In this document: positions 1,914-45,835 of the stretch, in pieces
Layout: each line of letters starts with the position of its first letter
Position numbering within the stretch: the stretch's first letter is position 1
Made by a program: the position numbers and the translations under genes
NCBI GenBank assembly: GCA_916048055.1
Contig: CAJZHL010000006.1
Span: 1,018,936-1,082,935 of the forward strand
DNA: 64,000 nucleotides
Source: Pedinophyceae sp. YPF-701
Lineage: Eukaryota > Chlorophyta > Pedinophyceae
Direction: 5' to 3'
The notes under the pieces: generated by a model
Told to the model about the DNA's origin: nothing
Databases searched by the model: none
Seen by the model: the letters and a program-made list of their open reading frames with translations, nothing else

Positions 1914-4900
1914 CTCCCCAGCATGCGTGTGCGGGCTGTGAGCGACCGGTGCCGGGCGGCGACGACCGGTCGCGAGTCGCGCCGACATCCGCGCGCGCAC
2001 TGCGCACGTGCTCCGCGGAAACGGGACACAGCTATTTTCATTATTTTTCATTATTTTCATTATTTCTACCACCTGCGTCATTGGACGCTGACGTGGTGCA
2101 GCACGGTGCTCGGAGCACGCTCTGGAGTCCAGTCCGCGCGAGCCTGCCATGCCCGTACATTCCGCAAGGCTGTGTCCAGCGACGTGGCAGCACTCGTGGG
2201 CGCAAGTCCGCGCCTGGGCACGTTGCAACGCTCACCGCACACAGCGCGCACGAGTGCGGGCGAGTGGCGGCGACGTATGACGCTGCCGGCGCGCGGAGAG
2301 ATGGAGCCAGTCGGGCGTGCTCGGCAGCGCGAGACGTCTGCGACGGTGCAGGGGCTGGGGCGCGAGCTGTTGAAGCAACTGCACAGCGCGCCGCCACGCG
2401 ACGACGAGGGCTGACCGCCACACGATCGCCGGCTGGTGCGGGAAGGCGAAGACACGGAGACGTCGGCCGGGTGTCACGGCGGGGCCGAGCACGTCGCGAG
2501 GGCCGCGAGGCGGGCGCACTTGTGCTGGGAGGCTGCTGTTTCTGTGTCCCTGGACGTGCGGGGCGGCGAGGGAGGGCAAGGGCGCGACATGGCGGGTGCC
2601 ATGGGGCGCACACGCGAGGGGAGACGGTCGGCTGTGGATGTGAACGCCGCAGGTGCGCAGGGGAGATGGCCAGTGAGCACAGGCCCCGGTGCGTTCCCCC
2701 CCCGTCGCCGTATCCGTGCTTGGCAAGGCGCGCTCGCGGGCCGTGCTGCGATGCATGGACATGACAGGTCGCGCATGGCCTGTGCGTGCGGCTGGTGTGG
2801 CGGGGCGCCGGTCGGCGCAGCTGGGTGGACAGCCACTGCACAAGCGCCTGCAGGTAGATCACCGTGCGGCACCCGGCACCGCTCGCAGGTGGGCGAGCGC
2901 ATCGGCGGCGCACGAGGAGCGCTGCCAAGGGCGCGGTCCGTCGCCGGCGCGCTGCTCCCACTCCCGCGGGCGTCCTCTGACACTGAGCAGCGCTCTGTGT
3001 GTGTGTGTGTGCTCATGGAGCGGTGGGCGCGTGGGACCCGCGCTGCTGTGTGCGCGGAAGGTGAGCAGCTGCCCGCGGCGATGCACGGCTGTGCGCGGCC
3101 GCCAACTGCGGCGTCCGATGCTCTCGTGCACGAGGGGCGCCGCAACGCTGCGAGGGTCTGCAGCGAGACACTGCAGCGTGACGCACTGCGAGGCTGACTG
3201 CGCGCTGTGTGGCGGGGGAGCCGAGAGATCGCGGCGCTGCCATGCGGCATGCACTGTCAGCTGCGAGCGCGTTCGGGACATCTCACAAGTGCATGAGGGA
3301 TGCTGCGTCGTGCTGTGCCGCGAGGTGCTTGCTCCTGCTGTCTCCCACGATTTGAACTGCGAACCCGCCACAACGGACGATGCAGGTCCGCGAGCCGGTA
3401 CAGACGTGGCCGGTGCGACCCTGTGCTCGCAGTCGGGCTGACAGCGGTTGTGGAGTCGCGGGGCAGCGACTGGGCCCGGATGAAGGGCCGCGCGCGTCGC
3501 GGGACGGCGGCCAGATGACGTCGACGTGAGGAACGAGGCGGTCAGCAGCTGGCACAGGCGGTCCGAGGGCAGGTCTCCCGTCGTGGCGATTCACACACTC
3601 GAAGAGGCAAGCAGCGGCGCCTCCCCGCAGCGACATGGTGCGCCCCCCTCGACCGACCAGTGCTGGAAGGCATACATGAGAGTCCGCGGAACGCTATCTT
3701 GTCGGGCCGTGCGCGCGTGTTGTGGTGGCGTTGCGGCTGTAGGTCTGCGTGCGCGGGCTCACGCGCGACTGCGGTACGCTGCGAGGCTCGCTGCGAGCGC
3801 GACACGGTCGCATGGGAGGCCGAATATGCGAGCGGCCCCCCAGAGCCGAGCGCGGTCCGAGTGCCGCACGTTTTACCGAGTGCCGCACGGCTCGAGATGC
3901 CGAGCAAACGAATCGACGTGTGCGACCTGTCAGGGGACCTGATCACGTGCTGGTTCTTGCAGGGCATTAAACACAGTAAGCCCTCAACGCGCACTGTCAC
4001 GCTCGCGGACGTCCTCCACTGCGTTCCTGGGATCGTCCGGCGCGTGGAAAAGGAGGATTGCATGAGCCTGCTGAGGACGGCGCGGGGCGTGCGGAACGCT
4101 GTGCTGCGGCAGCGTCCTGCTACTCTGGAGGTGACCGTCAACTCGCTGCGGGCTCTGGAGCGCCGCGCAACCCAGCTCGGGAACCTGACGGTAACTTGCC
4201 AAGGCATCAGCGTGCCGGTCGGCGACGCCAGCAGGCTTTTGCGCGCGCTTGAGGGCTGCAACTACAACAATACGACGTCGACTCCTAGTGGGAGCCCCGC
4301 GGATCACGTGCGGGCGGTGCGGAGCCTGCTGGAGTCTTCGATTCGGGACTCGTCCACGCCACTGCATTTGGTCGGCCTGCACATCAACGCCCCGCTGCCC
4401 GAAGTGAACGCCCCTCGGAACCTCGCCTCAGCGCAACTTTCCGAGCTGATGAACGAGGTTGCCGCGCTTCGGCAGGTGCTCTGCCAGCTGCAGCAAGCGA
4501 CCGGGCGTCAGGCCACCCAGGTGGTGTTCGAGGCAGACGGCTGCACGGTGACGACGAGGGCGACGGCGGAGGCGTTCGAGGTTGTGCGGCTGACGGAGAA
4601 GGCTGACGTCCTCCGCATGACGAGCGCTCTGAGGGCGCATCACGGCACGCTGGAGGAGCTGGACGTGACGGGCGCTGCTAACCTCAACAGTGACTACTTG
4701 CTGCCGGCGCCGGCGGTGGTCTCTGCGTGGGGCGACCTGTGGAGGTGGATCGGGCGCGCCCGCAACCTGCGCGTGCTGCGGCTGGCACAGTCCGACATGA
4801 CGCCCAACTTCGTCGACAACCCGTCGTTCCAGAAACGCATGGTGGACGCACTGCTGGCCTGCGAGCAGCTGGAGGTGCTGGAGCTGCAGTGCGACGTGCT

Positions 4901-6344
4901 GCGCGAGGCCGTGATCGATCGGATCATGCCGCGGCTCGTCACGCTGAGGGAGCTGCGGCTGCGGTCGTGTGGCATCAATGCCGCAATCGCACAGATGATG
5001 GCAACCGGGCTGGCCGAGGCGAGGGGCGGGGCGCTGCAGGTCCTGGACCTCAGCAACGCGTTTGGGCTCGGTGCGGGATTTTGGTGCTGGAACGAGTTCA
5101 ACCTCGCCGCGGCACTGCCCAGCCTCGCGCGCCTGCTGCAGTGTGGGCGGCTGGAAGACCTGCACATGTCGTGCGTCGGGCTGACGGACGGCGGCGCGTC
5201 GAGCCTGGCGGAGGCCATCGAGGACGAGAGCTGCAAGCTGCGCGTGCTCGACGTGTCTTTCAACAAACTGAGGGAAGAGGTTGCTGCCCTGGGCGCTGCG
5301 ATCGGCGCGAGCAGGACGCTGGAGGTGGTGAACCTGGACGGGAACTTGATCGACGACGAGGGCATGAGCGCCATCGGCCGCGGGCTGCGGCTCAGCAAGA
5401 CCATCCGCGAGCTGTCCTTGTGCGGGCGTTCCAGTGACACGCTCAGCGGACCGTGGACCGAGGGCGCCCGGTCGCTCGGGGGGGGGCTGCGTCGCACGCG
5501 CTCGCTGCGCGTGCTGCGCGTCGACTACTACAGCTTCCAACCGGCGGACTACGCGGCGATCCTCGACGGGCTTGCAGCGAACTCGTCGGTGGAGGTGATG
5601 TCCATGTTCAGCCGGGTGGGCAACAGGGTGGACTACCGCGTTGCGAGGAAGGTCGCCGACATGCTGCGGCGGAACAGGACGCTGCGGGATCTCAACATGC
5701 AGTGGAAGAACGTAACCAAGCGCGGTCTGGCCGCCATCGGCAGGGCGCTTCGGTCGGGCAATGAGACGCTGCAGTACCTCAGCGCGGACCGCGACGAAGA
5801 CGGGCGGTGCGCGCTCAGGCAGCTCGCGGTCGAGAACTCCAAGGTTGTCGCCTCGGAGTCAAGGTCCCCGCCCAGCCGCTGGGGTGCTGTTGGAATCGTC
5901 TCGCTTTACGTGTTGGCGTTCTTTGCGTTCGGAAGAGTGGAGAAGGTGCTGCAGCAACGTCAGGCCGCTCCGAGGGGCAGGGGCGCCGCCGGTGGCGCAC
6001 CTTGAAGGACAAAGACACCCCAGCCCCTGTCAAGACCTTCAGCCTCGTCACCGCTGCGACGGCGGCTGGCATGGTTGGGATCGATGCAGGCCTGACTTTT
6101 TTGGAGGGTTCTGTCATCATCGCGATGATCAGGGGCCTGATGACGGGGAACAATGGCCCGGCCGGGAGGGCGACGAGGTAGATCGGATCGCAGACGAGGC
6201 TCTCTTTCGTTGAGGGCCTCTCAATGATGTGAGGACGCACCCATCGCCTGTGGCCTCGCCAGCAACCTCCGCGCAGCTCGCACGACTCGCGCACGAGCTG
6301 CGTGCCACCAACCAGGCCGCTGTCGTCCCGGCGAGCCCCGTCGT
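1737..6344 (+). repeat. Tandem array unit 1 (4,608 bp), carries gene B
   Basis: First of four head-to-tail units. It starts inside gene A at the string gcgctgcttgatgg and ends where that string recurs. Content: A 3' end (to 1913), non-coding spacer 1914-3634, gene B, and a 3' flank of about 340 bp. The spacer holds an AT-rich tract built on ttttcatta (about 2033-2068) that is shorter in the other units, and a GT microsatellite (about 2996-3011). Open frames in the spacer are broken by non-triplet indels between units, so I call it non-coding (promoter, UTR or relic). Confidence 0.85.
3635..6005 (+). CDS. LRR protein B (array copy), ATG-only first exon, predicted N-myristoylated
   Basis: Proposed join 3635-3637, 3963-6005 (681 residues). 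Exon 1 is ATG followed at once by donor GTGCGC. The acceptor ttcttgcag ends at 3962 and both junctions are phase 0. Splicing gives MGIKHSKPS, which fits the MGxxxS N-myristoylation consensus with Lys next. Then come an F-box-like helical region (VPGIVRRVEKEDCMSLLRTA), LRR_6-type repeats over most of the length, and a hydrophobic stretch (VGIVSLYVLAFFAFG, bases about 5885-5935) near the C-terminus. Relative to gene E, a net 7-nt deletion near 5990 shifts the frame and stops translation at 6003-6005; the old tail frame continues to 6181. An alternative start at the internal Met 4061 (MSLLRTA) would drop the N-terminal helix. Confidence 0.8.
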
Positions 6345-8199: not shown

Positions 8200-10805
8200 A
8201 TGGTGCGCCCCCCTCGACCGACCAGTGCTGGAAGGCATACCTGGGTGGTCGCGGAACGCTATCTTGTCGGGCCGTGCGCGCGTGTTATGGCGGCGCTGCG
8301 GCTGTAGGTCTGCCTGTATGGGCTCACGCGCGTCTGCGGTGCGCTGCGAGGCTGGCTGCGAGCGCGAAACGGTCGCATGGGAGGCAGAATATGCTAGCGG
8401 TGCCCCGGACTCGGGCGCGGTCCGAGCGCCGCGTTCGAGACCGCCGAGCAATCGAATCGACAGCGGCGAATCAACAGTGGCTTTGTCTTCGCCGTGCCTG
8501 ACCTCGGAGACGGAAACCCGCGCACTGGGGCGGCCGAAGGCGCCTCGATCGAGGTGCCTGTGTCCGGCGTGCGCTGGTTCTCTGACTGGTCTTGCTGTCT
8601 CGGTCGGGGGAACGTCGACCCCAGCCTGAACAACTTCCGCATATCGCCTGCGGGGACCCGACCTTCTGCGCCGATCCACGCGTGTCCTTGCAGGGCGGAA
8701 ATCAGAGCAGGTCCTCGAGGGGCAATGCTACGCTCGCAGACGCCATTCACGGCGTTCCTGGTATCGTCCAGCGCGTTGACAACGGCGCCTCCATGAGGCT
8801 GACGAGGGCGTTCCGCGAGTTGCGAGACGCAGTGGTGCGGCACCGTCCTGCTACCCTGCGGGTGACACACAACTCGCTGCGGGCACTGGTGTGTCGCCCC
8901 AGGCAGCTCGGGGACGTGCCGACGGTGAACTACGATGGCCTGTGTGTGCCGGCCGGTGACGCCGGGAAGCTGCTGGCAGCGCTCGAGGGCTGCAACGCGA
9001 CGAGTCTGGAGGCCGCAGGGAATCCCGCAGACCACGTGCGGGCGGTGCGGAGGGTACTGGAGAGGTCGGTCCAGAATCTGACGCCCCTGAGCATCATTGC
9101 CTTGCACCTGAGCGCCCCGCTGCCAGGAATGCAAGCGAACGGCGCTGGCATGGATGGCTTGGAGTCGGAGCTCGTGGCGCTGCGGCAGGTGCTCTGCCAG
9201 CTGCAGCAAGCGACCGGGCGTCAGGCCACCCAGGTGGTGTTCGATGCACACGGCTGCACGGTGACGACGAGGGCGACGGCGGAGGCGTTCGAGGTCGTGC
9301 GGCTGGTGGGATCGTGCAGCACTCCGAGTCTGACGGGCTTTCTGGGGGCGCATCACGGCACGCTGGAGGAGCTGGACGTGACGGGTGCTTTCGACCTGAA
9401 CGGCGACTACTGGCTGCCGGTGCCGGCGGAGGTGGTCTCTGCGTGGGGCGACCTGTGGAGGTGGATCGGGCGCGCTCGGAACCTGCGCGTGCTGCGGCTG
9501 GCGCAGTCCGGCATGACGCCCAACCTTGTCGACAACCCGGCGTTCCAGCAAGGCATGGTGGACGCGCTGCTGGGCTGCGAGCAGCTGGAGGTGCTGCAGC
9601 TGCGGCATAACATGCTGCCTGCGGCCTTGATCACGCAGATCATGCCGCGGCTCGTCACGCTGAGGGAGCTGCGGCTGCGGTCGTGCGGCATCAATGACGC
9701 AATCGTACAGATGCTGGCAACCAGGCTGGCCGACAGGGGGGGCGGAGCGCTGCGGGTACTGGACGTGAGCGACGTGCGGGCGTTCGCTAATCCGCAACGC
9801 TGGTACCGGAACGCGTTCAACCTCACCGCGGCATTGCCCAGCCTCGCGCGCCTGCTGCGGTGTGGGCGGCTGGAAGAGCTGTACCTGTCGTGCGTCGGGC
9901 TGACGGACGGCGGCGCGTCGAGCCTGGCGGAGGCCATCGAGGACGAGAGCTGCAAGCTGCGCGTGCTCGACGTGTCCAACAACAAGGTGAGGGAAGACGT
10001 TGCTGCCCTGGGGGCTGCGATCGGCACGAGCAGGACGCTGGAGGTGGTGAACCTGGACGGGAACTTGATCGGCGACGAGGGCCTGAGCGCCATCGGCCGC
10101 GGGCTGCGGCTCAGCAAGTCCATCCGCGAGCTGTCCTTGTGCGGGCGTTCCAGTGACGCGCTCAGCGGACCGTGGACCGAGGGCGCCCGGTCGCTCGGGG
10201 AGGGCCTGCGTCGCACGCGCTCGCTGCGCGTGCTGTGCGTCGACTACTATAGCTTCCAACCGGCGGACTACGCGGCGATCCTCGACGGGCTTGCAGCGAA
10301 CTCGTCGGTGGAGGTGATGTCCATGTTCAACCGGGAGGGCAACAGCGTGGACAACCGCGTGGCGAGGATGGTCGCGGACATGCTGCGGCGCAACAGGACG
10401 CTGCGGAATCTCAACATGCTGTGGGAGAACGTAACCACGCGCGGCCTCACCGCCATCGGCAACGCGCTTCGGTCGGGCAATGAGACGCTGCAGTACCTGA
10501 GCGTGGACCGCGACAAGGACGGGCGGTGCCCGCTCAGGCAGCTTGCGGTCAGGAACTCCAAGGTTGCCGCCCACAACCGCTGGGTTCTGGCTTCGTGGTC
10601 CGTAGGGGTTGGGGTGTTTTTTGCGTTGGATCAAGTGGTGAGGATGGCGCTGCAGCAGCAAATCCAGGCCGCTCCGAGGGGCAGGGGCGCCGCCGGCAAC
10701 GCTGACGGCACCTTGAGGGGCAAGGACACCCCAGCCCCTGTCCCGACCTCGAAGCTCGTCACCGCCGCGAGGGTGGTTGACATGGTCGGGTCGATGCAGG
10801 CATGA
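8200..10805 (+). CDS. LRR protein C (array copy), ATG-only first exon, predicted N-myristoylated
   Basis: Proposed join 8200-8202, 8694-10805 (704 residues). ATG is followed directly by donor GTGCGC; acceptor tccttgcag ends at 8693, phase 0. Spliced start MGGNQSRSS fits MGxxxS. The conserved internal Met of A, B and D (CMSLL) is replaced here by a differently placed Met (SMRLTRAF), which favours the upstream start. F-box-like region, then RNI-type LRRs (such as LRVLDVSNNKVREDVAALG), then a weak hydrophobic segment (SWSVGVGVFFAL). A 1-nt deletion near 10785 relative to gene E truncates the tail at MQA; the shifted frame would continue past 10860. Bases about 9685-9775 match gene A more closely than the neighbouring copies. 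Confidence 0.8.
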
Positions 10806-11049
10806 TTGTTGTGGAGGGTTCTGTCATCACTGCGATGATCAGGGGCCTGAGGGTCGGGCACAAAGGCCCGACTACATAGGTGACGAGGTAGATCGGATCG
10901 CAGACGAGCCTCTCCGGTTGAGGGCCTGATGATGTGAGAACGCACCCGCCGCCTATGGCCTCGCCAGCAACCTCCGCGCAACTCTCACGACTCGCGCACG
11001 AGCTGCGTCCCACCATCCAGGCCGCTGTCGTCCCGGCGAGCCCCGTCGT

Positions 11050-12894: not shown

Positions 12895-15533
12895 ATGGTG
12901 CGCACCCGTCGACCGACCAGCGCTGGAATGTATACCTGAGTGGTCGCGGAACGCTATCTCGTCGGGCCGCGCGCGCGTGTTATGGCGGCGCTGCGGCTGT
13001 AGGTCTGCGTGTACGGGCTCACGCGCGACTGCGGTGCGCTGCGAGGCTGGCTGCGAGCGCGACACGGCCGCATCGAAGGCGTACGGTACCAGCCTGTCAC
13101 ATGAACCGCGCACGGTCCGAGTGCCGCGTTCGAGACCGCCGAGCAACCGAATCGACAGCGGCGAATCAACAGTGGCCTTATCTTCGCCGTGCCTGACCTC
13201 GGAGACGGATACCCGCGCACTGAGGCGGCCGCAGACGCCTCGATCGAGGTGCCTGTGTCCGGCGTGCGCTGGTTCTCTGACTGGCTTCGCTGTCTCGGTC
13301 GGGGGAACGTCCGACCCCAGCACTGCATTATCCGCATCACGCCCAAGGGGGACCCAACCGTGCGCACCGCGCCGTTCGACGCTCGCTCACGCAGGGCGGA
13401 AGACAGAGCAAGCCCTCAAGTGGGGGCAATGCTACGCTCGTGGACGCCCTGGAAACCGTTCCAGGGATCGCGCAACGACTCAACGCTGATGACTGCATGA
13501 GCCTGCTGAGAACGTCGCGGGGCGTGCGGAACGCAGTGGTGCGGCACTATCGTGGAACCCTTTGGACGACACCCGGCTTGTTCCGGGCTCTGGTGCGTCG
13601 TCTCGAGCACCTCGGGGACGTGGGTTTGGTGAAGTACGACGGCCTGTGTGTGCCGGCTGGTGACGCCGGGAAGCTGCTGGCAGCGCTCGAGGGCTGCAAC
13701 GCGACGAGTCTGGAGGCCGCGGGAAATCCCGCAGACCACGTGCGGGCGGTGCGGAGGGTACTGGAGAGGTCGGTCCAGAATCTGACGCCCCTGCATGTGG
13801 TCTCCTTGCACCTGAACGTTCCGCTGCCAGGAGTGCAGTCGGGCGGTGCCGGCACTGATGGCGTAGAGTCGGAGCTCGTGGCGCTGCGGCAGGTGATGTG
13901 CCAGCTGCAGCAAGCGACCGGGCGTCAGGCCACCCAGGTGGTGTTCGAGGCAGACGGCTGCACGGCGACGACGAGGGCGGCGGCGGAGGCGTTCGATGTC
14001 GTGCGGCTGACGGAGAAGGCTGACGTCCTCCGCATGACGAGCGCTCTGGGGGCGCATCACGGCACGCTGGAGGAGCTGGACGTCACAGATGGATTCGACC
14101 TGAACTGCGACTACTGGCTGCCGGTGCGGGCGGAGGTGGTCTCTGCGTGGGGCGACCTGTGGAGGTGGATCGGGCGCGCTCGGAACCTGCGCGTGCTGCG
14201 GCTGGCACATTTCGGGTGGGAGCCTATCTTCGTCAACGATCCGTCGTTCCAGGAGTGCATGGTGGACGCGCTGCTGGCCAGTGAGCAGCTGGAGGTGCTG
14301 GAGCTGCGGTACAACGTGCTGCCTGAGGCCGTGACCGATCGGATCATGCCGCGGCTGGTCACGCTGAGGGAGCTGCGGCTGCGGTCGTGCGGCATCAGCG
14401 AAGAGGTCGCTGAGGTGCTTGCTGCGGGGCTGGCCGAGGCGAGGGGTGGGGTGCTGCAGGTCCTGGACCTAAGTAACGTGTGTGCGCTCGGCGCGGGAGG
14501 GGGGTACGGGAACGCATTCAACCTCGCGCGCCTGCTGCGGTGTGGGCGGCTGGAAGAGCTGTACCTGTCGTGCGTCGGACTGACGGACGGCGCCGCGTCG
14601 AGCCTGGCGGAGGCCATCGAGGACGAGAGCTGCAAGCTGCGCGTGCTCGACGTGTCCAACAACGACATGAGGACAGCCAGTGCCGCCCTGGGCGCTGCGA
14701 TCGGCACGAGCAGGACGCTGGAGATGGTCAACCTAAACGGGAACTTGATCGGCGACGAGGGCCTGAGCGCCATCGGGCGCGGGCTGCAGCTCAGCAAGTC
14801 AATCCGCGAGCTGCTCTTGTGCAGGCGCCCCGATGCCGCGCACAACGGTCCTTGGACCGAGGGCGCCCGGTCGCTCGGGGAGGGCCTGCGTCGCACGCGC
14901 TCGCTGCGTGTGCTGCACGTCGACCACTACGCCTTTCAACCGGCGGACTGCGCGGCGATCCTCGACGGGCTTGCAGTGAACTCGTCGGTGGAGGTGCTGT
15001 CCATGTTCAGCTGCGTGCGCAACCACGTGGACGATCGCGTGGCGAGGAAGGTCGTGGACATGCTGCGGCGCAACAGGACGCTGCGGAGACTCCACATGAA
15101 TTGGGATAACGTAACCTGGCGCGGTTTCGCTGCCATCGGCAGCGTGCTTCGGTCGGGCAACGACACGCTGCAGTACCTCAGCGAGGATCGCGACAAGGAC
15201 GGGCGGTGCGCGCTCAGGCGGATCGCGGTCAGGGGCTCCAAGATTGTCGCCTTCGAACGCTGGGTCGTTCTGCCTTCGTTGGTCGTGTGGGCGTTTTTCG
15301 AGTACAGGGGAGTAAAGGTGCTGAAGCTGCTGCAACGTCAGGCCGCTCCGAGGGGCAGGGGCGCCGAGGTGCAGACCCCGAGCTGGATCGACAACGCTGA
15401 CGGCACCTTGAAGGGCAGGACACCCCAGCCTCTGTCCCGACCTCGAAGCTCGTCACCGCCGCGAAGGTGGCCGGGATTGTTTGGGTCGGTGCAGACGTGG
15501 CTGCTTTGGAAACTTGCGTCATCAGTGTCATGA
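12895..15533 (+). CDS. LRR protein D (array copy), ATG-only first exon, predicted N-myristoylated
   Basis: Proposed join 12895-12897, 13395-15533 (713 residues). Donor GTGCGC directly follows ATG; acceptor gctcacgcag ends at 13394, phase 0. Spliced start MGGRQSKPS fits MGxxxS followed by Lys. There is no in-frame ATG between the acceptor and the internal Met at 13497. F-box-like stretch (LETVPGIAQRLNADDCMSLL), then LRRs, then a hydrophobic segment (VVLPSLVVWAFFEY). This copy has lost the AALPSL motif before LARLL in the mid-LRR variable loop. A roughly 20-bp insertion near 15367 and a 1-nt deletion near 15417 give it a unique C-terminus ending SSVS. It shares the EKADVLRMTSAL cassette with gene B only. 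Confidence 0.8.
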
Positions 15534-15912: not shown

Positions 15913-17590
15913 CGTCCGTGACTCCCCAGCATGCGTGTGCGGGCTGTGAGCGACCGGTGCCGGGAGGCGACGACCGGTCGCAAGTCGCGCCGACATCCGC
16001 GCGCGCACCGGGCACGTGCTCCGCGGAAACGGGACACAGCTATTTTCATTGTTCTACCTGCGTCATTGGACGCTAACGTGGTGCTCGGAGCACGCTCTGG
16101 AGTCCAGTCCGCGCGAGCCTGCCATGCCCGTGCATTCCGCAAGGCTGTGTCCAGCGGCGCGGCAGCACTCGCGCGGGCAAGTCCGCGCTTGGGCACGTTC
16201 CAACACTCACCACACACAGCGCGCACGAGTGCGGGCGAGTGGCGGCGACGAATGACGCTGCCGGCACGCGGCAAGATGGAGCCAGTCGGGCGTGCTCGGC
16301 AGCGCGAGACGTCTGCGACGGTGCAGCTGGGGCGCGAGCTGTTGAAGCAACTGCACAGCGCGCCGTCACGAGACGAGGGCTGACCGCCACACGATCGCCG
16401 GCTGGTGCGGGAAGGCGAAGACACGGAGACGTCGGCCGGGTGTCACGGCGGGCCCGAGCACGTCGCGAGGGCCGCGAGGCGGGCGCACTTGTGCCGGGAG
16501 GCTGCTGTTTCTCTCCCTGGGCGCGCGGGGCGGCGAGGGAGGGCAAGGGCGCTCCATGGCGGGTGTCATGGGGCGTGTGAGCGAGGGAAGGCGGTCGGCT
16601 GTGGATCGGAACGCCGCAGGTGCGCAGGGGAGATGGCCAGTGAGCACGGGTGCCCCGGTGCGTTCCCCCGTCGCCGTATCCGTGCTTGGCAAGGCGCGCT
16701 CGCGGGCCGTGCTGCGATGCATAGACGTGACTGGATGCGCCTGGCCTGTGCGTGCGGCTGGTGTGGCAGGGCGCCGGTCGGCGCAGCTGGGTGGACAGCC
16801 ACTGCACAAGTAGATCACCGTGCGGCACCCGGCACCGCTCGCAGGTGGGCGAGCGCATCGGCGGCGCACGAGGAGCGCTGCCAAGGGCGTGGTCGGTCGC
16901 CGGCGCGCTGCTCCCACTCCGGCGGGCGTCCTCTGACACTGGGCAGGGCTGCGTGTGTGTGTGTGCTCATGGAGCGGTGGGCGCCTTGGACCCGCGCTGC
17001 TGTGTGCGCATGGAAGGTGAGCAGCTGCCCGCGGCGATGCACGGCTGTGCGCGGCCGCCACCTGCGGCGTCCGATGCTCTCGTGCACGAAGGGCGACGCA
17101 ACGCTGTGTGGGTCTGCAGCGAGACACTGCGGCGTGACGCACTGCGAGGCTGACTGCGCGCTGTGTGGTGAGGCAGCCGAGAGATCGCGGCGCCGCCATG
17201 CGGCCTGCACTGTCAGCTGCGAGCGCGTTCGGGACATCTCACAAGGGCACGAGGGATGCTGCGTCGTGCGTTGGCTTGACGCACCTGCTCCTGTCGTCTC
17301 CCACGATTTGAACTGCAAACGCGCCACAACGCATGATGCAGGTCCTCGACCCGTTACAGACGGCGCCGGTGCGACCCTGTCCTCGCAGTCGGGCTGACAG
17401 CGGTGGTGGAGTCGCGGGGCAGCGACTGGGCCCGGATGAAGGGCCGCGCGCGTCGCGGGACGGTGGCCAGATGACGTCGACGTGAGGAACGAGGCGGCCA
17501 GCAGCTGGCACGGACGGTCCGAGGGCAGGTCTCCCGTCGTGTCGATTCACACACCTGAAGAGGCAAGCAGCGGCGCCTCCCCGCAGCAAC

Positions 17591-29500: not shown

Positions 29501-32500
29501 AGCACTGGCGCAACCAGGTGCACGGACTCCTCTTCTCCAAGCTCCACGCGGCGGCTGCGGAGCTTGAGAGAGCGCGACGCGACCTGGCAACCTCCCAGGA
29601 CGGCCACTGCGTCGACGTCCTGCGCGGCTGCAACGTGGTTGGGGTGACGACGACAGCCGCGGCAGCGAAGCAGGCCATGCTGCGCCGCGCCAAGCCCCGC
29701 GCCGTCGTCATCGAGGTGCGCCGCCTGCCTCCTTCTGCCCCACGTTTGCTCCTTCTTTGCCTCGGTGCTGTGTCGCGTCGTCGACGCCGCACCCTCCGCG
29801 CGTCGTCCGTGCAGGAGGCGTCCGAGGTGCTCGAGGCGCACATCCTCACGGCGCTGCACCCGGACACGCAGCAGCTGGTCCTCATCGGCGACCACGAGCA
29901 GCTCCGTCCGTCGGTGGAGGACTACTCCCTCAGCGTCGACTCGGGCCGCGGCCGAAACCTCGACCTCAGCCTGTTCGAGCGTCTCGCGCTTGTGCCGCAC
30001 TTCCCGTGCACGACCTTGGGGACGCAGTGGCGCATGCGCCCCGAGATCAGCGCGCTCATCCGTGGCCCCGTCTACCCGAGGCTCGTCGACGCCCCCACGG
30101 TCCACGACCACCCGCACGTCAAGGGCGTCGCCACCGACCTGTTCTTCCTGGCGCACGACGTCCCCGAGGACGGCCACGACCTGCCCGGCGGCGCGGACAC
30201 GAGCTACTCCAACGCGCACGAGGCCCAGCTCGCGGTGGCGCTGGCGCAGTACCTGATCGTGCAGGGCTACACGGGCGGGCGCGTGTGCATCCTGACGCCC
30301 TACCTCGGGCAGCTGCGGCTCATCCGCCGGATCGCGGGCGACAAGTACGTCACGCTGTCGGAGCGCGACGAGGAGGAGCTGGAGGAGCTCGCTCTGCGCG
30401 ACGTCAGCGGCGGGGACGGCCAGGGCGAGGTAGACGTGGTGACGGCGCGCAGGACCAGCATCAGGGACGTGCTGCGCTGCGCCACCATCGACAACTTCCA
30501 GGGCGAGGAGGCTGACGTGCGTTCACCACCTGTATTGACCGCCTGGTTGCGTGCGAGGAGGGTTCGGGGTCGCTCGAACGCCCGGGCACATGTGGCCACA
30601 CTCGTCGTGCCGCTGTGGAGCGCGTGGCGCGATCTCTCCGACTCAAACCCGTGTGCGTCTCGTTCGCGCAGGTGGTCATCCTGAGTACGGTGCGGAGCAA
30701 CAGCAAGGGCCGCGTGGGCTTCGTTGGCATCAAGAACCGCATCAACGTGGCATTGTCGCGGGCGAGGCACGGCCTCTACATCGTCGGCAACGCCGCGATG
30801 CTCCGCGACGCCAAGGGTGGGAGCACGATGTGGGCGCCGGTTCTCGAGCAGCTCGCGGGGGCCGCGCGCGTTGGGGGCGCTCTGGCCCTGAGGTGCCAGA
30901 ACCACGCGACGGTGACGCGGGTCCGGACCGCCGGCGACATCGCTCTTTTCTGCATCGACGGGGGCTGCAAGGAGCCGTGCACCACGCGCTTGCCGTGCGG
31001 CCACGCTTGCCCACGCAGGTGCCACCCTGACTCGCACGCGGGGGTGTGTTGCGAGCAGCCGTGCCAGCGTCTGCACCAGCCCTGCGGACACCGGTGCGAC
31101 AAGATGTGCGGGGTCGACTGCGGGCAGTGCCGCTGGCCGGTGCGCGACGTCGCGCTGCCGTGCGGCCACGTCGCAGCCAGCCTGCCCTGCTACCAGGCTC
31201 AGGCGCCCGAACGCGTGCGCTGCGTCGAGAGGATCGAATGCGGGCTGCCGTGCGGCCATGTCATCCAGCGGGACTGCGGCACCCCGGCGGAGACCGTCCT
31301 GCAGCGCCCGTGCCCGGAGCTGTGCGGCAAGCAGGTTGCATGCGGCCACATCTGCGACTCCCCTTGCTCGCACGAGGGGCCCTGCACCTGCACGCGCGCC
31401 TGCCCTCGCACGTGCACGCACGGCACCCGCTGCGACCATCGCTGCGACCACCCCGAGCAGTGCGTGGCCTGCGCCGAGCCCTGCGTGTGGGCGTGTCCGC
31501 ACCGCGGCAAGTGCGTCCTCCCCTGCGGCGCCCCGTGCGTGCGGCTGCCCTGCGACGAGCGCTGCCCGCTCCTCCTCGCGTGCGGTTGCCGCTGCCCGGG
31601 CGTCTGCGGAGACCCCTGCCACGAGGGCTTCTGTCGGCTGCACCCGAGGAACCCGGACCTCCTCAAGCAGACGGTCGACCTCATCGCCCTCACGGACTTC
31701 GCCGACCACGACCCCGACGTCGACGGCCCGCTCGTGGTCCTCGACTGCGGCCACGCGTTCACCCTGGAGACCATGGACGCACACGTGGGTCTCGGTGCGA
31801 CGTACGACCGCGCCGCCGACGGAACGTGGCTGCGGCCCAAGGCGGTGGACGAGAGCGGCCCGCCGAAGACATGCCCCTCGTGTCGCCAGCCTGTCGCGGG
31901 CACGCTGCGCTACGGGCGGCCGATTGCCAACGGCCGGCTGTACGACATGACGTCGGCGTTCAACCGAGGCGCTCTGGACAGGCTTGCGGGCGTGTCGAGG
32001 CTGCTGGCGGAGCAGGAAGAGACCATGGACGCTGTCGAGGGAGCCGCGATGGCCGGCCGGCGTTCCACTGCAGAAGCGAGCAACGTGGGCAAAAAGCTGA
32101 TTGCGATCCGGCGGGACATCTGCGACCTTCTCGCGGCAACGGCGCGCCCCCCGACTCTGAAGATCTTCGAGGCGACGGTGGCGGCCGTCACGCGCGCAAC
32201 GGCGTCGGACGACACGTACGAGGAGCAGACGGAGGCGCTGCGCGGCGTGCAGGCGGCGCTGCGGCCGGACGACACGGTCCGAGCCCAGGTGCTGCTCGCA
32301 AATGCGCGCGCAGTCGTGCTGCAGGCCTGTGCCGGCGCTGCCTCGACGGCGGGGACATCTCCGGCGGGTGCGCTGGTCCTCGCGGTCATGAGCGCGCAGC
32401 AGGTCTGCCGGAGCGCCAAGGTGCTCGCCGCAGAGACGCGCGCAGTCACGACAATGTGCTCCGCGACGCTCGCAGCCTACGAGGCCGCGAGGACCGCGGC

Positions 32501-34104: not shown

Positions 34105-36164
34105 ATGGTGCGCGCCCTTCGCTGGTTGTCTGCACCGCATGCGATTCGCCCGCGAGCCAGTGTGCTCTGGCAGTTGCTCGCGCTCGCGAGCTCGGCGAAC
34201 ACACATCGCACCTGCCCTTCTCTGCGACGCCCGCGATGCAGGATCACCAGAGGAGCGGCGCGGCGGCGCTGTTCGACCAGGTCCTGTGGGAGGTGCCGGG
34301 CCACGTGCTGCCGTGGCTGTCGCCGGCGGACAAGGCCAGTTTCGGGTCGGCGTCGTGGAGCACGCTGGAGGCGGTGCTGCAGGACAGGGACGCGACGCTG
34401 CGCGTGGACCGCGGGGGCAGCCTCCTCGCCTCGCTGGCGGCGCGGGTGAGGACTGGGGGCCTGCGAGTGCGGGCAACCCTCGAGTGCTGCGGCGTGGGGG
34501 TGGCGGGGGCGCGCTCGCCGGACGTCCTGAACGCAGCGCTCGCCGACATCGCGGCCCCACCGCCAGAGGGCCACACGCGCTTGTCGATGGAGTGGTGGCA
34601 CTTCATGTTGCGGTTGATTCAGAGCACCGATGCCGACACGCCGCTGCTGACGGGGCTGGTGCTGCGGTCGCTCGCGCTGTCCGGCACCGAAGATGCGGAG
34701 ATGACGGTGCTGCAGCACGTCCTCAGGTACAGGGCGGTGAGGGACACGCTGCGGTGTCTGCGGCTGCGACGCGAGTGGGACGAGGCGCAGCTGGCGGAGA
34801 CACTGCGCGGCCTGAAGGCGCTCCGCCACCTGGAGCTTGTCGATCCGGCGTGTTATTGCGACGACGACGAGGACCTGCGCGGGGTGGAGCTGGTGCGCGC
34901 GCTGCGCACATGCCCGGGGCTGCGCCGGCTGGACTTGTCGGGCGCGCATTTCGGGTCGGAGGGGACGCGTTTGTTCGGGGAGTGGCTCTTGGGCGCCGCG
35001 GAGCTCCGCGTCTTGACGATAAGGACCTGCAGCTTCTCGCTGAACCCCCAGCATGATCCGATACCATGTCGCCTTCCACCCAGCCTGGAGGTGTTCGAGG
35101 CGACGGAGTCCACGTTGCCCTGGGTGGACAACTGGGACGAGGTCACGAATCTGCGCAAGCTCGTGATCCGCCACGTGGAGGCGCCGCAGACACCTGACCC
35201 GAGCGGAGAGTACGTCGATTGGTTTTTCGAATCGGATGCAAGGCGCCTGGCCAGCGCTATTCAGGGGAGTCAGGTGCTCCAGCACCTGGAACTCACGACG
35301 GGTGAGACTGCTAGCTTCCACTACGACGGCGCGGGGACGTGCGCGTTGCTAGCTGCGGCAGCTGAGTGTCGCAGCCTGGAGGTCCTCGACCTTCGGGTGC
35401 GCCGGTACGGCAGAAGCGTCGCGGAGCTGACCAGCGCGCTTGTGGGGCTGCTGCGACGGTGCAAGCGCGTAAGGGAGGTGTCGCTCCACAATGCGGGCCA
35501 GTGCCCGTTCGACTTCGCTGCAGTGGCAGCAGCCCTGCAGGAGAGCGGCGTGCGCAAACTGGTGCTTGATGAATGCCGCGTCGATGATGATGGCGCGGCG
35601 GCTCTTGCAGGCGTCCTGCTCGAGAGAGGTCTCGAGTGCCTCTCGATCACGACCTTCTGTCAGTGCAGCGGCCTCACCGCGGTGGGAGCCTCTCACCTCG
35701 CGACCCAGCTCGCCCGGACGAGTCTGCTGCGTGAGCTGGACATGTCCGGCAATCGGATCGGCTGCGACGGCGTGGCAGCGCTGGCGGCCGCACTGCCCCG
35801 GTCGGGCGTCCGCAAGCTCGGGCTGCGCGATTGCGCAATCGGCGGCGTCGGGGCAAGGTGCCTGGCGGCGGTGCTGAACCACACATTGCTGCGCGAGGTC
35901 GACCTGTGCTCAAACACGTTCGGCGACGAGGGGGCGAAGGCGCTGGCGGTGGCGATCGCGGACAGCGCGACGCTGGTGTCGCTGGATCTGAGTTGCTGCG
36001 ATATCACCGGCGCGGGTGGCATGGCGCTGTCGGAGGCGCTGCGTGAGGCGGCAACGGTGGAGACGCTGGATCTGCGTGAGAACAAATTCAACGACGCGGA
36101 TGTCAGGGCAATGCGCCACATGCACAGCGGCAACAGCGACAGGATCTTGCTCGCGGACCGGTAG
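34105..36164 (+). CDS. LRR protein G, F-box-like N-terminus
   Basis: Proposed join 34105-34107, 34242-36164 (641 residues). ATG is followed directly by donor GTGCGC; acceptor cgatgcag ends at 34241, phase 0; spliced start MDHQRSGAAALFDQVL. Alternatively the ATG overlapping the acceptor (34236, MQDHQRSG) could start an unspliced product, which changes only the first residues. F-box-like region LFDQVLWEVPGHVLPWL, then a divergent middle and clear RNI-type LRRs to the end (LRELDMSGNRIGCDGVAAL, LREVDLCSNTFGDEGAKAL). It ends shortly after the last LRR, with no hydrophobic tail. It is the first gene downstream of the ZNFX1-like gene, on the same strand. Confidence 0.82.
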
Positions 36165-36952: not shown

Positions 36953-39135
36953 ATGGTGAGACAAGGCGCGTTTGTCGTGGTGATTGCTCCCGTCGAGGCC
37001 AGGCGCGAGGTGCTCTCTGTGCCCCTGCAAGTCGTTGAGAACGGCGCGCTGCGCGTCTGCAACATCGTCACGACGCTGAGACACACGCTCTCTGACATGC
37101 TGTGTACTGTTCCCCACCGCGCACGCAGGTATCCAGGCGCGCAAGGCGCGGGCCGGTGCTCCTCGATGCTGTGCTGCGCGAGGTGCCGAGCGTGCTGGAC
37201 AGGGTGTCGAACGCCGACAAGGCGAGCTTGGCGGCGGCGCGATGGAGCGTGCTGGAGGCGGTGCTGCGCGGCAGCGACGCGACGCTGAAGGTGCACCCGC
37301 AGCAGCCGGTGCTGCATGCGCTGGCACGCCGACTGGATGGCGGGGAGTGCCGGGGCCAGATCGAGTACAGGGGCGTGTGCGTGCCGGCGACGGATGCGGG
37401 GCCGCTGCTGGCGGCGCTGCAGGGGTCGGCGGCGAAGGACGCTGCCCATGACTCGATCGTGAGGTGGGCGGCGTACGTGTGGCGGCTGCTGCAGGCGGCG
37501 TCGCGGAACGAGGAGGGGCCGCTGCACGTGACGGAGCTGCGCGTCCCGGTGCTGAGGGTCATGGGCGACGTAGCGGCGGGCTTGTTGCTGGCGCTGCGGT
37601 CGGTCCTGCAGCACCCTCTGGTGCGGGAGCACCTGCGGCACCTGTGGGTGGCGGGGCTGCGGCAAGACACGCTCGGGGCGCTGGAGGGCAGTCTGCGGGA
37701 GCTGGCGGTGCTGCAGGGGCTGAGGCTGACCACGGTGCTTGCGCCCGTCGAGGCGCGGGACGAGGGTGCGCCGCTGGTGGGGCTGGTCCGCGAGTGCGCG
37801 TCGCTGCGGCGGCTGGAGCTGTGCGGGGCGCACGTCGAGGGCGACGCGGCGGAGGAGCTGCTCGGCTGGGTGGCGGGAGCTCCGGACCTGCGCCAGCTCG
37901 CCTTTGGGGGTTGCAAGGTGAAGGTTGCTGACGAGGAGCTGTGGTCAGGGCCGCGGACGCCGTTCGGGCGGCTGGAGTCGTACGAGGCGAGCGATAACGT
38001 CGAGTGGAGCTGGGTGGCGGGGCGTGCGTGGTGGGGCGTGGCTGGCCTGCGGCGACTGAAGCTCGTGGCAGACCAGATGGACGCGGGCAAGGCACGGGCG
38101 CTGGCGGACCTGCTGCGGACGAGCACGGCGCTATGCGAGGTGGATGTGCAGACGGAGTGGTACCCTGAGGGGGCGACTGACGTCGACGAGGCCACATCCG
38201 CCATTCCAGGGCTGCTGTCCGCGCTGGCGCACAACACGTCCGTGCGAAAGTTCCGCCTGCAAGTCTCCCGGTGCCTGCTGTCGTTCGCGAACTTTGCGCC
38301 GCTGATCGCGGACGTGGTGCGGAGAAACCACACCCTCCAGGAGCTGAAGGTCACGGAAAGCTGGTCTGATGACGAGCCGGTGGAGTTCCCCGACGTGCAG
38401 CTCATCGCCGAAGCGCTGCAGGACAACAGGGGGCTTCAGGTGCTCGAGCTCCCGCGGTGCAAATGCGACGGCGGCGAGCTGGAGGCGTTCGGGGGCCACA
38501 TCGCGCACAACCGCTCGCTCCGCCGCCTGGCACTCATGGGAGGCGATGCGTCCCCGCAGAGCTTGTTGGCTTTTGGGCGAGGGCTCTCGCGCGTGACGAG
38601 CTTGCGAGCCCTCAGCTTCTCCGCCTACTCGTGGGGCGACGCACAATGCTGCGCCCTTCTCGACGGGCTGTGGAGTGCCACGGGCAAGGCTCAGCTGACG
38701 CACCTGTCGTTGAGCAACAGCAACGTGAGAAAGGCGGGCGCGGAGAGGCTGGCAGGCCTGCTGTCGTCCAAGACATGCACGCTGCGCGAGCTGGACGTCT
38801 CGATGAACCGCCTTGGGGACGACGGTGCCAAGGCGCTGGCGGAAGGACTGAGCGAGAACAAGTCGCTCGTGGCCTTGGACGTCCGCGACAACTACATTCA
38901 AGAGGCCGGTGCCGCAGCGCTGCTGGCAGCGCTGCGCAGGAACACGACGCTCAGTGTGCTGCGTCTCGAGCAGCAGCAGCCCATCGACGCAAGTCCGGCG
39001 ACGTTCAGTGCGTTTACGCCGCCCGGCAGGAGGCCCTGTCACGTGGACTGGGGGGCAAAAGGACTGTCCTTTCCACCAGGGTGTATTCCACCACCGGAAA
39101 TGATGGCTGCAATGGCAGCGTTCGCGACTCAGTGA
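36953..39135 (+). CDS. LRR protein H, F-box-like N-terminus
   Basis: Proposed join 36953-36955, 37129-39135 (669 residues). ATG|GTGAGA donor; acceptor gcgcacgcag ends at 37128, phase 0; spliced start MVSRRARRGPVLLDAVL. There is no in-frame ATG near the beginning of the large exon, so an upstream start is required. F-box-like region (VLREVPSVLDRVSNADKASL) closely resembles genes I and J. LRRs become regular in the C-terminal third (LRELDVSMNRLGDDGAKAL, LVALDVRDNYIQEAGAAAL). C-terminus is Pro/Gly/Met-rich (FPPGCIPPPEMMAAM). H, I and J form a same-strand group with duplicated spacers. Confidence 0.83.
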
Positions 39136-40615: not shown

Positions 40616-42731
40616 ATGGTGCGATGATGATGTTGCCCCCGGAACACATCGCTTCGACGCATGCATGCACATCACGCGCTGGGACCTTGTGCATGCGATC
40701 ACGGCTTGAGCAGGGCGCGAGGCGCGCACCCCGGACGACCGCGGTTCGGTGCCCTCATGTGTGGAGGCTCTGTGCCGTCGCGTGCAGGAGCCTGGCGGCC
40801 GAGGTGAGCTGTTCGACCGCGTACTGCGGGAGGCGCCTCGCTTGCTCGACATGCTCCCGGACGTCGACAAGGCCAGCCTGGCCGCGGCGCGATGGAGCAC
40901 GCTGGAGGCGGTGCTGTGGGGGTGCCGCGCGACCCTCCAGGTGCACCCGGACGACCCGGCGCTGCACGTGCTGGCGCGGCGGACGGAGGACGGCCCGTGT
41001 GTGGGGCAGGTGTCGCTGTGCGGCGTTCGGGTGGCGGCGAGGGACGCGGGGCTGCTGCTTGAGGCTGCGCAAGACATGCGCGAGATGCTGCCGGAGGACA
41101 GCGACTGCGACGAGGAGTGGAACCGTCTGTGGATGGAGCTGGTGTGGGCGCTGGCGAGCCGGGCCGAGGGCAGCGGGGCCGGCGTGACGGGGCTGAGCGT
41201 CCCGAAGTGGAGCGACAGCGGCAGGGCAGCGACGCAGGTGATGGCGGTGCAGCGGCTGCTGTCGCTGGGGGCCGTCAGGGACCACCTGCGCTCCCTGAGC
41301 ATCTCATTGATGCGTGTGGGCGACGGCGACCGGCCCAGAGGCGCGCTCGTCGCGTCGCTTCTCGACACCATTGGGGGGCTGGCGGCGTTGCAGCACCTCG
41401 ACGTCGACCTCGTGCACTGCCGCAACTGCGCCAGCGCGTGGTTGGCAGGCCCACGCCCGACCGTCGCGACGCTGCGCCTCTCGAACGCGGTGTTCCACGG
41501 CCCGGGCGAGACACGGGCGTTCCTCGACGGCCTCGACGCGGCCCGGCGTCTGAGGCACCTGCGCCTGGAGTATGTCGCGCTCGAAGAGGAAGCGTGCCGT
41601 AATCTCGTGAGGCCTCCGCCGGCGCACCTCGCGGCGGTCGTGGCGGTCAACAGCGACCTTCCGTATGACTGGCGGGAGGCGACGAACCTGCACACGCTGG
41701 AGCTGGGCGACGACGACGAGTTCGGACCAGCGTGGTCGGAATCTGATGACAGCTGGGGGGCAGTCGCGGAGCTGATGCGACGAAGCGAGGCGCTTCGACG
41801 GCTCAAGCTTGAACCCCTTCTTTCTCCCACAGACGACGACGCCCTTGCAGTGATCCAAGCGCTGCCGAAAAGCACGTTGGAGGTTTTCGACGTGTCGTAC
41901 GAGCGCAGCCTTAGCGGGCATTCGACCGTGACACAGGCGCTGGTCGCGACAATGCGCGGCACCACTCTGAGACAGCTTCACTTGAAGGGCGACAATTTTC
42001 ACTCGGGGCCCGACTTCGACGTTCCGGCGGTGGCGAACGCGCTCGGAGAGAACACGACGCTGCGTGTGTTGGAGCTCGACAACTGCGGAATCAGCGACGA
42101 GCACGCTGAATCGCTCAGTGACGCTCTGAGGCGCAACACCGCGCTGGCCGAGCTCGGGCTGAGGGTCTGCCGCCTGACAGATAGGGGCGTCGCGGTGCTG
42201 TCGGACGGCCTCCGGGAGAATCGTGGGCTGCAGGTCTTGCGCCTCGACTCGGCAGTTGAGGAAATCGACCCTGCGTGGATCCGGCGTATCCTGAACGCTG
42301 TCAGCGACCGTCCCCGGACCGCGAAGTTGCGCACCCTGGAGATCTCCGACATCCATGTCGATTTCGATCGCTGCGCGAGACACATTGCAAGCTTCCTCAG
42401 CAGCAGCCGCTGCACGTTGCACAACTTGCTGCTCTACCGCTGCCGGATCGACGACTCCGGCAGGGCAGCGATCGCTGATGCGCTGAGGGGCAACGCATCG
42501 CTGGAGTCTCTCGAAATCCCAAGCCATTCGCTGACAGACGCCGGGAGGGAGAGCTTCGCGGAGGCGCTTGTGGAGAACGCAAAGCTGCGGCATCTCAGGC
42601 TGCTGTGGGGGGGAGTGTCTGGCACTCGGAGCGCGTCTGCGGTGGGCGCTGAGCTGTTGCACGCGCAGAGGTACGCGATCGCGAGGAGGCAGATCAAGGC
42701 CGGCCCTAGAACCTCGCCGCGCTCTCGATAG
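40616..42731 (+). CDS. LRR protein I, F-box-like N-terminus
   Basis: Proposed join 40616-40618, 40788-42731 (648 residues). ATG|GTGCGA donor; acceptor cgcgtgcag ends at 40787, phase 0; spliced start MEPGGRGELFDRVLREAP. The F-box-like stretch LFDRVLREAPRLLDMLPDVDKASLAAARW is the clearest of the family. The middle is divergent; RNI LRRs are evident from about residue 390 (LRVLELDNCGISDEHAESL, LAELGLRVCRLTDRGVAVL). The ATG|donor pair is less certain than in the others because the homologous position of gene J's start survives upstream as TAG (40099). No hydrophobic tail. Confidence 0.78.
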
Positions 42732-43690: not shown

Positions 43691-43840
43691 ATGGTGAGAG
43701 ACGCGCCCGCCGACCACCATCTCGAGCCCCGCCGCGCCTGGAGCGGTCTGCGCAGGGCCCTGCGTAGCCCAGCGCTTGTGCTTGGGTCCCCCGCGCGAAT
43801 GATGACACGCGTCGGACTCCGTCACTGACCGGCGCGTTTG
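42895..43840 (+). repeat. I-J spacer, homologous to the H-I spacer
   Basis: Partner of 39290-40225. The copy extends into gene J's 5' intron (to about 43840), so the duplication included the start region of a J-like gene. Here the family start signal ATG|GTGAGAG at 43691 is intact. Confidence 0.8.
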
Positions 43841-45835
43841 GCCACCCGAACCGCGCAGGCGCTGGACGCGCGCAGGAACGCGGGCCTGCAGCTCGCCGAC
43901 GTGCTGCTCGTGCCCGGGCTCCTCGACAAGCTTGCTGCGGACGACACGAAGAACCTCGCGGCGGCGTCTTGGGGGACGCTCGAGGCGGTGCTGCGCGGGA
44001 CGACTGCGCGGCTTCGCGTGCACCCGTCGGAGCCCGTGCTGTGGGGGCTCGCGCGGCGGGCGGCCGCAACGGCGGCAGGGGGGAGTGGGAGCGGCGACGC
44101 CGCGGGAGGACTTGTGTACTGCGGGGTCCGCGTGTCGGCGGCAGACGCGGCGGCGTTCCTCGAGGCGCTGCGGGAGGTGCGCGCGGACGACCCCGGGCGG
44201 CAGGGACGCGACATCAGCTTTGCGCAGTGGGCGAAGTTCGTGCGGAGCCTGGTGACGGCCGGGCAGGGTGCCGTGCGCGTGACGGGGCTCGGAGTCCCGC
44301 TCTCCTTCGACCGGGGTGCAGCGCGGGACGCGGACGCCGCGTTGCAGGCCATGGCGCTGCAGACCATCCTGGCTGCCCCGGCCGTGAGGGCGCACCTGCG
44401 CTCCCTGACCCTCAACGGCGTGTGCGCCAGAGACTGGGAGGTCTTCAAGGAGTACGAGGACGCGCTTCGGGGTCTGCCGTCGCTGGCGCGCCTGACCATC
44501 ATTCACGACGGCGGGGGCCGGTGCGACGGCGGCGCGGCGGTGCGCCTGGCTCGCGGGTGTCCGGGGCTGCGGCAGCTCAGGCTGCGCGGGTTCACGTTCG
44601 ACCGTGCGGGCGTGCAGATGCTCCGCGCCTGGCTGGCGCGGGCCACGCACCTCAAGGCCATCAAGCTGACGTGTTGCGCGGCGGAGGGGGAGAACGGGTG
44701 GGGCGCCGAGGACGAGCCGCCCTTGGCGCCGCACCTGGAGAGCTTCAAGGTGGTCGAGGCGTGCGACCTGCACAGCGTGGGGGCGTGGTTCGGCCCGAAG
44801 CTGCGATCGCTGCACCTGCGCAATTGGAATGGATTGACCGCGGACGGTTGTCGCCCGGTCGCGGAAGACGTGAAGCTGGCGGAGCTCATTCGACGCAGCA
44901 CGACGTTGCAGCACTTGTCGGTCGTGGGCGCTCCGCTGGGGATCGAAGGCACGCTGGCCATCATGTCTGCGCTTGCGGCCAACAGGTCGCTGACGTCCGT
45001 ATGCCTCCCTACGACGTGGGGCGCCGACAACGTCGAAGCGGGGGTGTCGGACGCGATCGTCAGGGTGGTGCTGCGCCATCCGACGCTCGAGTCGCTGTCG
45101 CTGCAGATGCCGGCGATGGACAGGATTGCCTTGAACGGGGCCGACCTCGCAGCCGCCGTCGACCGGAACCGGTCGCTGCGCGAGATTAACTTCAGTGGCA
45201 TTTCCGTCAACCACGACGGCGCGGAGGCGCTCGGCGCAATCCTGCGCAACAACGACCGTCTGGTCAAGCTGAGTCTGGCAGATTGCAACATGAGCGCCCG
45301 CGCGATGGAGGGCCTGGCGCGCGGTCTCGGCGGCGGGATGTCAGCACTTCACACCCTCGATCTGAGCGGCAGCTCTATTTCCGCCGGCGGCATCGCGGCA
45401 CTGGCGCGGTCCAAGCTCATGAGCGTGATCACGTGCCTGTCTCTGAGCTTTTGCGAGATCCAAACGCCCGCGGTCCTCGAAAGTCTCGCGGACAGCCTTG
45501 CCGATGAGAGGTGCACGCTTCGCGAGCTGGATTTGAGCAGGAATCAGATCTGCAGACGCGGCGCCCTGTTGCTGGCGAGAGCGTTGGAGATGAACAAGAG
45601 CCTGGTCCACGTGGACTTGAAGCACAACAAGCTTGGCAGAGGCGGGGTCGAGGCCCTGCTGCAGCACGCCCGAACGAGCCCGACTCTGTGGTCGCTGGAC
45701 CTCGAGGGCAACGGCGTGGAGCCAGCGGAGCTGGTGTATCTCTATCGCGAGCACCTCGGTGGACCGCAGCCGCGCATGTGGAGGCCGAGTTTGGAGCTGA
45801 ACACCTGCAGGCCCGATCTGGCGGTCAAGCTGTGA
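43691..45835 (+). CDS. LRR protein J, F-box-like N-terminus
   Basis: Proposed join 43691-43693, 43859-45835 (659 residues). ATG|GTGAGA donor; acceptor aaccgcgcag ends at 43858, phase 0; spliced start MALDARRNAGLQLADVL. No in-frame ATG lies in the first part of the large exon. F-box-like region (LADVLLVPGLLDKLAADDTKNL), then a Gly-rich insert (ATAAGGSGSGDAAGG), divergent LRRs and regular C-terminal LRRs (LRELDLSRNQICRRGALLL, LVHVDLKHNKLGRGGVEAL). It ends about 40 residues after the last repeat. Last LRR gene of the cluster; the next gene is APC4. Confidence 0.83.

Follow-up and report, generated by a model that had tools for sequence, protein, structure and literature searches.

Leucine-rich repeat genes with a predicted intron behind the start codon

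The window analysed here is a stretch of 64,000 nucleotides (nt) from Pedinophyceae sp. YPF-701 (contig CAJZHL010000006.1, positions 1,018,936 to 1,082,935), with 67% GC. Judged by its introns, it is eukaryotic. It holds ten genes for leucine-rich repeat (LRR) proteins, called A to J, all on the plus strand; the 5′ end of A lies beyond the window. In the nine others an ATG abuts a predicted donor site, and splicing to an acceptor further downstream would join this ATG to a single long LRR exon. The features concerned are the following (positions are those of the window).

3635..3637, plus strand: gene B, ATG, last codon of exon 1
3638..3962, plus strand: gene B, predicted start-codon intron, 325 nt
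3963..6005, plus strand: gene B, LRR exon 2
8200..8202, plus strand: gene C, ATG
8203..8693, plus strand: gene C, predicted start-codon intron, 491 nt
8694..10805, plus strand: gene C, LRR exon 2
12895..12897, plus strand: gene D, ATG
12898..13394, plus strand: gene D, predicted start-codon intron, 497 nt
13395..15533, plus strand: gene D, LRR exon 2
17591..17593, plus strand: gene E, ATG
17594..18086, plus strand: gene E, predicted start-codon intron, 493 nt
18087..20264, plus strand: gene E, LRR exon 2
20943..20945, plus strand: gene F, junction ATG; exon 1 could be longer via the ATG at 20895
20946..21387, plus strand: gene F, predicted start-codon intron, 442 nt
21388..23883, plus strand: gene F, LRR exon 2, putative 3′ end
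34105..34107, plus strand: gene G, ATG
34108..34241, plus strand: gene G, predicted start-codon intron, 134 nt; an in-frame ATG at 34236 overlaps the acceptor
34242..36164, plus strand: gene G, LRR exon 2
36953..36955, plus strand: gene H, ATG
36956..37128, plus strand: gene H, predicted start-codon intron, 173 nt, donor GTGAG
37129..39135, plus strand: gene H, LRR exon 2
40616..40618, plus strand: gene I, junction ATG; an in-frame ATG upstream at 40604 could give MRRQM
40619..40787, plus strand: gene I, predicted start-codon intron, 169 nt
40788..42731, plus strand: gene I, LRR exon 2
43691..43693, plus strand: gene J, junction ATG; distant in-frame ATG upstream at 43376
43694..43858, plus strand: gene J, predicted start-codon intron, 165 nt, donor GTGAG
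43859..45835, plus strand: gene J, LRR exon 2
3963-3986, 8694-8717, 13395-13418 and 18087-18110: MGxxxS followed by K or R, based on the predicted spliced N-termini of B to E

An earlier sequence-only reading had placed an ATGGTG(A/C)G motif at each of these nine starts, and all nine motifs lie where it had put them, on the plus strand. The donor is GTGCG in seven genes and GTGAG in two (H and J). A phase-0 acceptor, as claimed, exists in every case, with intron lengths from 134 nt (G) to 497 nt (D), and it consists of GCAG followed by G in all nine. That a CAG restores the LRR frame every time is true but says little by itself, as each gene has several in-phase CAGs; between donor and first conserved motif, one GCAG/G per gene (the slash marks the splice point) is in phase. 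The introns had also been called mostly unrelated, and this holds among E to J: when all 15 pairs were scored against 200 shuffles each, none exceeded 95% of them, with a short match between F and G (17 of 18 bases by BLAST) as the exception.

Without splicing, no translation from the junction ATG reaches the LRR frame: six genes (B, C, D, E, I and J) meet a stop codon in the intron, and the other three (F, G and H) read across the acceptor out of frame before a stop codon ends them. The AUG can be placed in the LRR frame only once an intron at such a position has been excised. In six of the nine genes (C, D, E, H, I and J) exon 2 offers no ATG in the LRR frame ahead of the conserved N-terminal motif, so a spliced upstream start is needed there. 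In B to E, G and H the junction ATG is the first in-frame ATG after the preceding in-frame stop, and a purine stands at −3 of the junction ATG in seven genes, F and I having C. By sequence, a phase-0 intron right after codon 1 is present in all nine genes, strictly so in B to E, G and H and ambiguously in F, I and J.

The predicted spliced N-termini of B to E read MGIKHSK, MGGNQSR, MGGRQSK and MGGNQSK, respectively. Gly2, Ser6 and a basic residue 7 are kept in these four, although identity between B and each of the others over the first 600 nt of exon 2 is only 71-73%. The consensus for N-myristoylation is MGxxxS/T, which the four N-termini resemble; they may thus carry a predicted signal of this kind. 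F to J are without Gly2.

Splice signals and their placement

Between LRR genes F and G lies a helicase gene whose reading frame is forced to switch at three places, which makes it an independent standard for local splice signals. It matches the Pfam models AAA_11, AAA_12 and RZ-type zinc finger and is presumably ZNFX1-like.

26414-32939, plus strand: helicase gene with RZ zinc finger, at least three introns
29054..29157, plus strand: helicase intron 1 (GTGCG...GCAG/G)
29716..29814, plus strand: helicase intron 2
30517..30671, plus strand: helicase intron 3

The switches have GTGCG donors at 29054, 29716 and 30517 and GCAG/G acceptors ending at 29157, 29814 and 30671. Two of the joins restore VIE/EASEVLEAH and FQGEEAD/VVILSTVRSN, which we take to be conserved helicase motifs, and one lies earlier. 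Because the same signals bound three helicase introns, those at the LRR junctions can be regarded as the local splice signals: the predicted start-codon introns begin with GTGMG (M, A or C) and end with GCAG/G, as the helicase introns do.

The rarity of the 8-mer ATGGTG(A/C)G had been put forward as an argument, but its raw count is unremarkable. Ten copies were found on both strands against a mean of 5.43 (standard deviation 2.44) in shuffled sequences, and 4 of 100 shuffles reach ten. The statement that it occurs nowhere else in the window applies to the plus strand, where it is also absent from both non-LRR genes as had been claimed; a tenth copy, ATGGTGCG, lies on the minus strand at 21143-21136. 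The count is therefore unconvincing as evidence against chance and was replaced by a test of placement, in which an anchor position passes if it has an in-phase GCAG/G at most 60 nt away, a frame that stays open, and an ATGGTG(A/C)G lying 90-520 nt upstream of the acceptor. All nine LRR anchors pass, compared with 141 of 121,385 other positions (0.12%) on both strands, a background from which the neighbourhoods of the nine LRR genes were excluded on the plus strand only, in which neighbouring anchors are correlated, and for which the motif was picked after the data had been seen. Since B to E are recent copies, the effective sample is about six lineages, not nine. It is the placement of the junction signals, not the count of the 8-mer, that is significant.

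Divergence along the tandem copies B to E

Genes B to E are arranged in tandem, each unit measuring about 4.6-4.7 kb. The 58 codons at the end of A (1738-1910) recur after B, C and D (6345-6518, 11050-11208 and 15748-15909; protein identity 100, 91 and 86%), which suggests a boundary of the tandem unit within an LRR gene. The tail at the C-terminus of E is also present, in a different frame, close to the ends of B and C (5999-6160 and 10712-10873). A frameshift or an unrecognised 3′ intron may account for the differing C-termini of the copies.

The 5′ parts of the four copies are little diverged. For copy E this common module is:

15991..17757, plus strand: little-diverged 5′ module common to B to E, from −1600 to roughly +167 of the intron (approximate edges)

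Across the six pairs of copies, the 1.5-kb 5′ flank differs by 3.2-6.3%, the ATG with the first 160 nt of the intron by 3.1-11.0%, and the four-fold sites of exon 2 by 9.2-16.7%. The four-fold sites diverge more than the flank in all six pairs (Fisher p 1.3e-4 to 1.4e-10). Variable sites of the flank number 50, 45 and 44 by codon position, i.e. without codon periodicity, and four intergenic open reading frames (ORFs) have no Pfam match; a hidden gene in the flank was rejected on these grounds. In exon 2 the codon positions vary almost equally as well, with 186, 184 and 204 variable sites in the DNA alignment of B to E and 223, 202 and 277 in the codon alignment of A to E, and the ratio of nonsynonymous to synonymous divergence (dN/dS) is 0.72-0.96 in the six B to E pairs.

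A maximum chi-square scan, run from −1500 to a point 900 nt inside exon 2, put the strongest change of divergence in the intron in all six pairs (0 of 1000 permutations). Within exon 2, runs of matching polymorphic sites are longer than in permutations in nine of the ten pairs among A to E (p ≤0.0085; A/D 0.13), and such long shared runs are what gene conversion would produce. On the 3′ side, divergence drops after the stop codon in B/D (+119) and C/D (+76). When LRR positions were assigned by motif in A to E, the concave face had no excess of variable sites (0.48 at exposed strand positions versus 0.51 elsewhere), and for this reason ligand-driven diversification is not claimed.

The LRR protein family

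All ten proteins match the Pfam model LRR_6, and the best sequence match of the family profile in the PDB is ribonuclease inhibitor. The predicted structure of J, calculated from an alignment of ten rows, has a mean predicted local distance difference test score (pLDDT) of 77.6 and a predicted template modelling score (pTM) of 0.74. In a Foldseek search with this model, a chain of an NLRP14 complex ranked first and ribonuclease inhibitors followed, with a TMt of about 0.7. By these likenesses to ribonuclease inhibitor and NLRP-type proteins, and by its tandem alpha/beta LRRs, the family is of the ribonuclease-inhibitor type. What sets it apart from these proteins is a helical region of its own at the N-terminus, with neither an F-box nor a NACHT match in Pfam; the model of J shows this region as helical, and residues 1-70 have pLDDT values of 33-75.

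A Pfam search of the ten proteins revealed no F-box or NACHT domain, in a setting where the HMMER filters drop most weak matches, and one member matches weakly the LRR repeats of an F-box protein (PF24758, E-value 0.0061). An F-box identity of the family was considered and is unsupported by the Pfam matches; the motif LxDVLxxVPxLL may resemble an F-box.

The spliced proteins have 641-832 amino acids and 1.1-2.8% lysine. Within their first 35 residues the maximum 8-residue hydropathy is 1.1-2.7, a crude measure for a signal peptide. Identity of the paralogues to J is 22-34%, so they are old, A to E excepted. The first conserved motif begins at residue 9-16 in all nine spliced proteins, and the intron position is therefore equivalent across the paralogues.

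Other features of the window

The second non-LRR gene has a weak APC4-type WD40 match (E-value 1.3e-4), slightly below the cut-off of the model. A scan of the window with Rfam gave no RNA family at gathering scores. A satellite-like tandem array occupies 53631 to 64000. Its units measure about 740 and 1072 bp, with a likeness of 97-99% in many pairs, and it includes two 145-bp repeat blocks (57976-58501 and 62457-62982). Two ORFs of 257 amino acids in this array had no match in a Pfam search.

Interpretation and alternative explanations

We consider it probable that the LRR genes carry spliceosomal phase-0 start-codon introns inherited within a duplicating family, and that their module of 5′ leader and start is separable from the LRR exon. 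Exon 1 would be a 5′ leader ending in AUG, which splicing would join to the single long LRR exon; we infer that transcripts are spliced in this way and that the intron is older than the radiation of the family. By analogy with other introns so placed, it would raise expression, and it would make the LRR product dependent on splicing. As a break anywhere in the intron preserves the frame, the intron would separate the leader-and-start module from the LRR exon, and the two could evolve and recombine independently. In B to E, the 5′ side would have stayed alike or been homogenised and the LRR exon would have become a diverged mosaic. A further step would be to see the start-codon intron as a recombination hinge, with a constant module of promoter, leader and AUG that stays alike among the tandem copies and behind which the whole LRR protein is swapped and diversified as a frame-safe cassette, and with splicing in B to E setting start and membrane targeting together. 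We put this forward tentatively and rather doubt it.

Several observations weigh against the inherited, separable intron. Only 5 of the 12 introns (nine LRR and three helicase) show a branch-point-like motif. In-frame ATGs upstream of the junction in F (20895), I (40604) and J (43376) mean that exon 1 could be longer, and the description of the first coding exon as ATG-only is strictly right for B to E, G and H but not for F, I and J. Likewise, the claim that translation is fully dependent on the intron stands for C, D, E, H, I and J and goes too far for B, F and G, where in-frame ATGs that need no splicing (3897, 21415 and 34236) each have a purine at −3. The break in divergence is imprecise: in the full scan it falls between +167 and +194 in five pairs and at +482 in C/E, and in a scan of noncoding sequence only, the change is intronic in five of the six pairs and spread from +178 to +416. 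For C/E the latter scan gives −315 (p 0.019) and no break in the intron, which places the change of this pair at the exon and not within its intron. The six pairs come from four copies and are non-independent, and the 3′ side presents a mixed picture, with divergence rising at −395 in B/C. In addition, tblastn detected no relatives in phages (query I) or plasmids (query G), and none were confirmed in collections of viral contigs and genome contigs.

The junctions could be real and exon 1 nevertheless longer, with the start at the upstream in-frame ATGs of F, I and J or in a further upstream exon, and the junction ATG an internal methionine or a product of chance. In F and I, position −3 is A for the upstream ATG but C for the junction ATG, and exon 1 up to the junction may then encode MPEGSSSTRALPGSGHM in F and MRRQM in I. 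We regard a longer exon 1 as unlikely, given the in-frame stop without an intervening ATG in B to E, G and H and the ATG/GT in all nine genes, which would be unexpected from a chance internal methionine. If translation began within exon 2, at an ATG further down or at a near-cognate codon, ATGGTGMG would become an upstream ORF; the in-frame ATGs of B, F and G would suit this, but six of the nine genes have none before the conserved motif, and we regard such a start as very improbable. The intron might also have been gained in parallel at ATG/G, as a proto-splice site, in several lineages. The unrelated intron sequences of E to J would agree with this, and for the Rps4 intron parallel gain at ATG/G is treated as not refutable (PMC6679479). 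The equivalent place in all nine genes speaks for single inheritance, which is simpler, and intron sequences drift; parallel gain thus appears improbable here.

For B to E, the 5′ module could also be alike through purifying selection on promoter, leader and 5′ intron, with exon 2 relaxed or diversifying and the intron no boundary of recombination. First introns commonly hold regulatory elements, and the dN/dS values of exon 2 fit this explanation. It has to face, however, that four-fold sites, and not replacement sites alone, exceed the flank in all pairs, that the flank extends over 1.5 kb without codon periodicity, that the jump in divergence lies within the intron itself in five of six pairs, and that exon 2 is a mosaic. 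We judge it less likely, though deserving serious weight, and with four copies module exchange and purifying selection on regulatory DNA cannot be separated with confidence.

Relation to known start-codon introns

The layout of the LRR genes belongs to a known class, termed 'start codon intron' by Nielsen and Wernersson in 2006 (PMC1626468). These introns are over-abundant, and the class tends to short, lysine-rich, conserved proteins with an enrichment for ribosomal proteins. An exchangeable 5′ leader, acting as a module in exon shuffling, is one explanation proposed in that study, which weighs a proto-splice-site explanation alongside (PMC1626468). The LRR genes resemble the class in the predicted phase-0 intron between codons 1 and 2 and in a codon 2 that begins with G in all nine genes, as the proto-splice-site argument expects; like the class, their proteins may lack an obvious signal peptide. 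They differ from its typical members in that their proteins are long, lysine-poor and fast-changing, which concerns a tendency of the class and not its definition. The same layout is known from the Rps4 intron in S. vortens (PMC6679479). In Yarrowia lipolytica, introns placed directly downstream of the ATG, as predicted for the LRR genes, raise the expression of a reporter, and splicing efficiency is highest for introns near the start codon (PMC13309789); the gain in expression was measured there, whereas for the LRR genes it is only inferred.

Phrase searches of the open-access literature, a weak basis for absence, yielded no LRR family with start-codon introns among the matches listed, and no natural family showing exchange of a 5′ module at such introns. 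The layout as such is known; the protein class and the boundary of divergence are new. The class of start-codon introns is thereby extended to large, fast-changing LRR proteins, where gene finders can easily overlook a three-base first coding exon. With a shared 5′ module, a changing cassette and a boundary in the intron, B to E look like what the module proposal predicts, and these four copies offer a direct testing ground for an exchangeable 5′ leader. If the start-codon intron does act as a recombination hinge, this would be a natural family showing the exchange of 5′ modules proposed in 2006.

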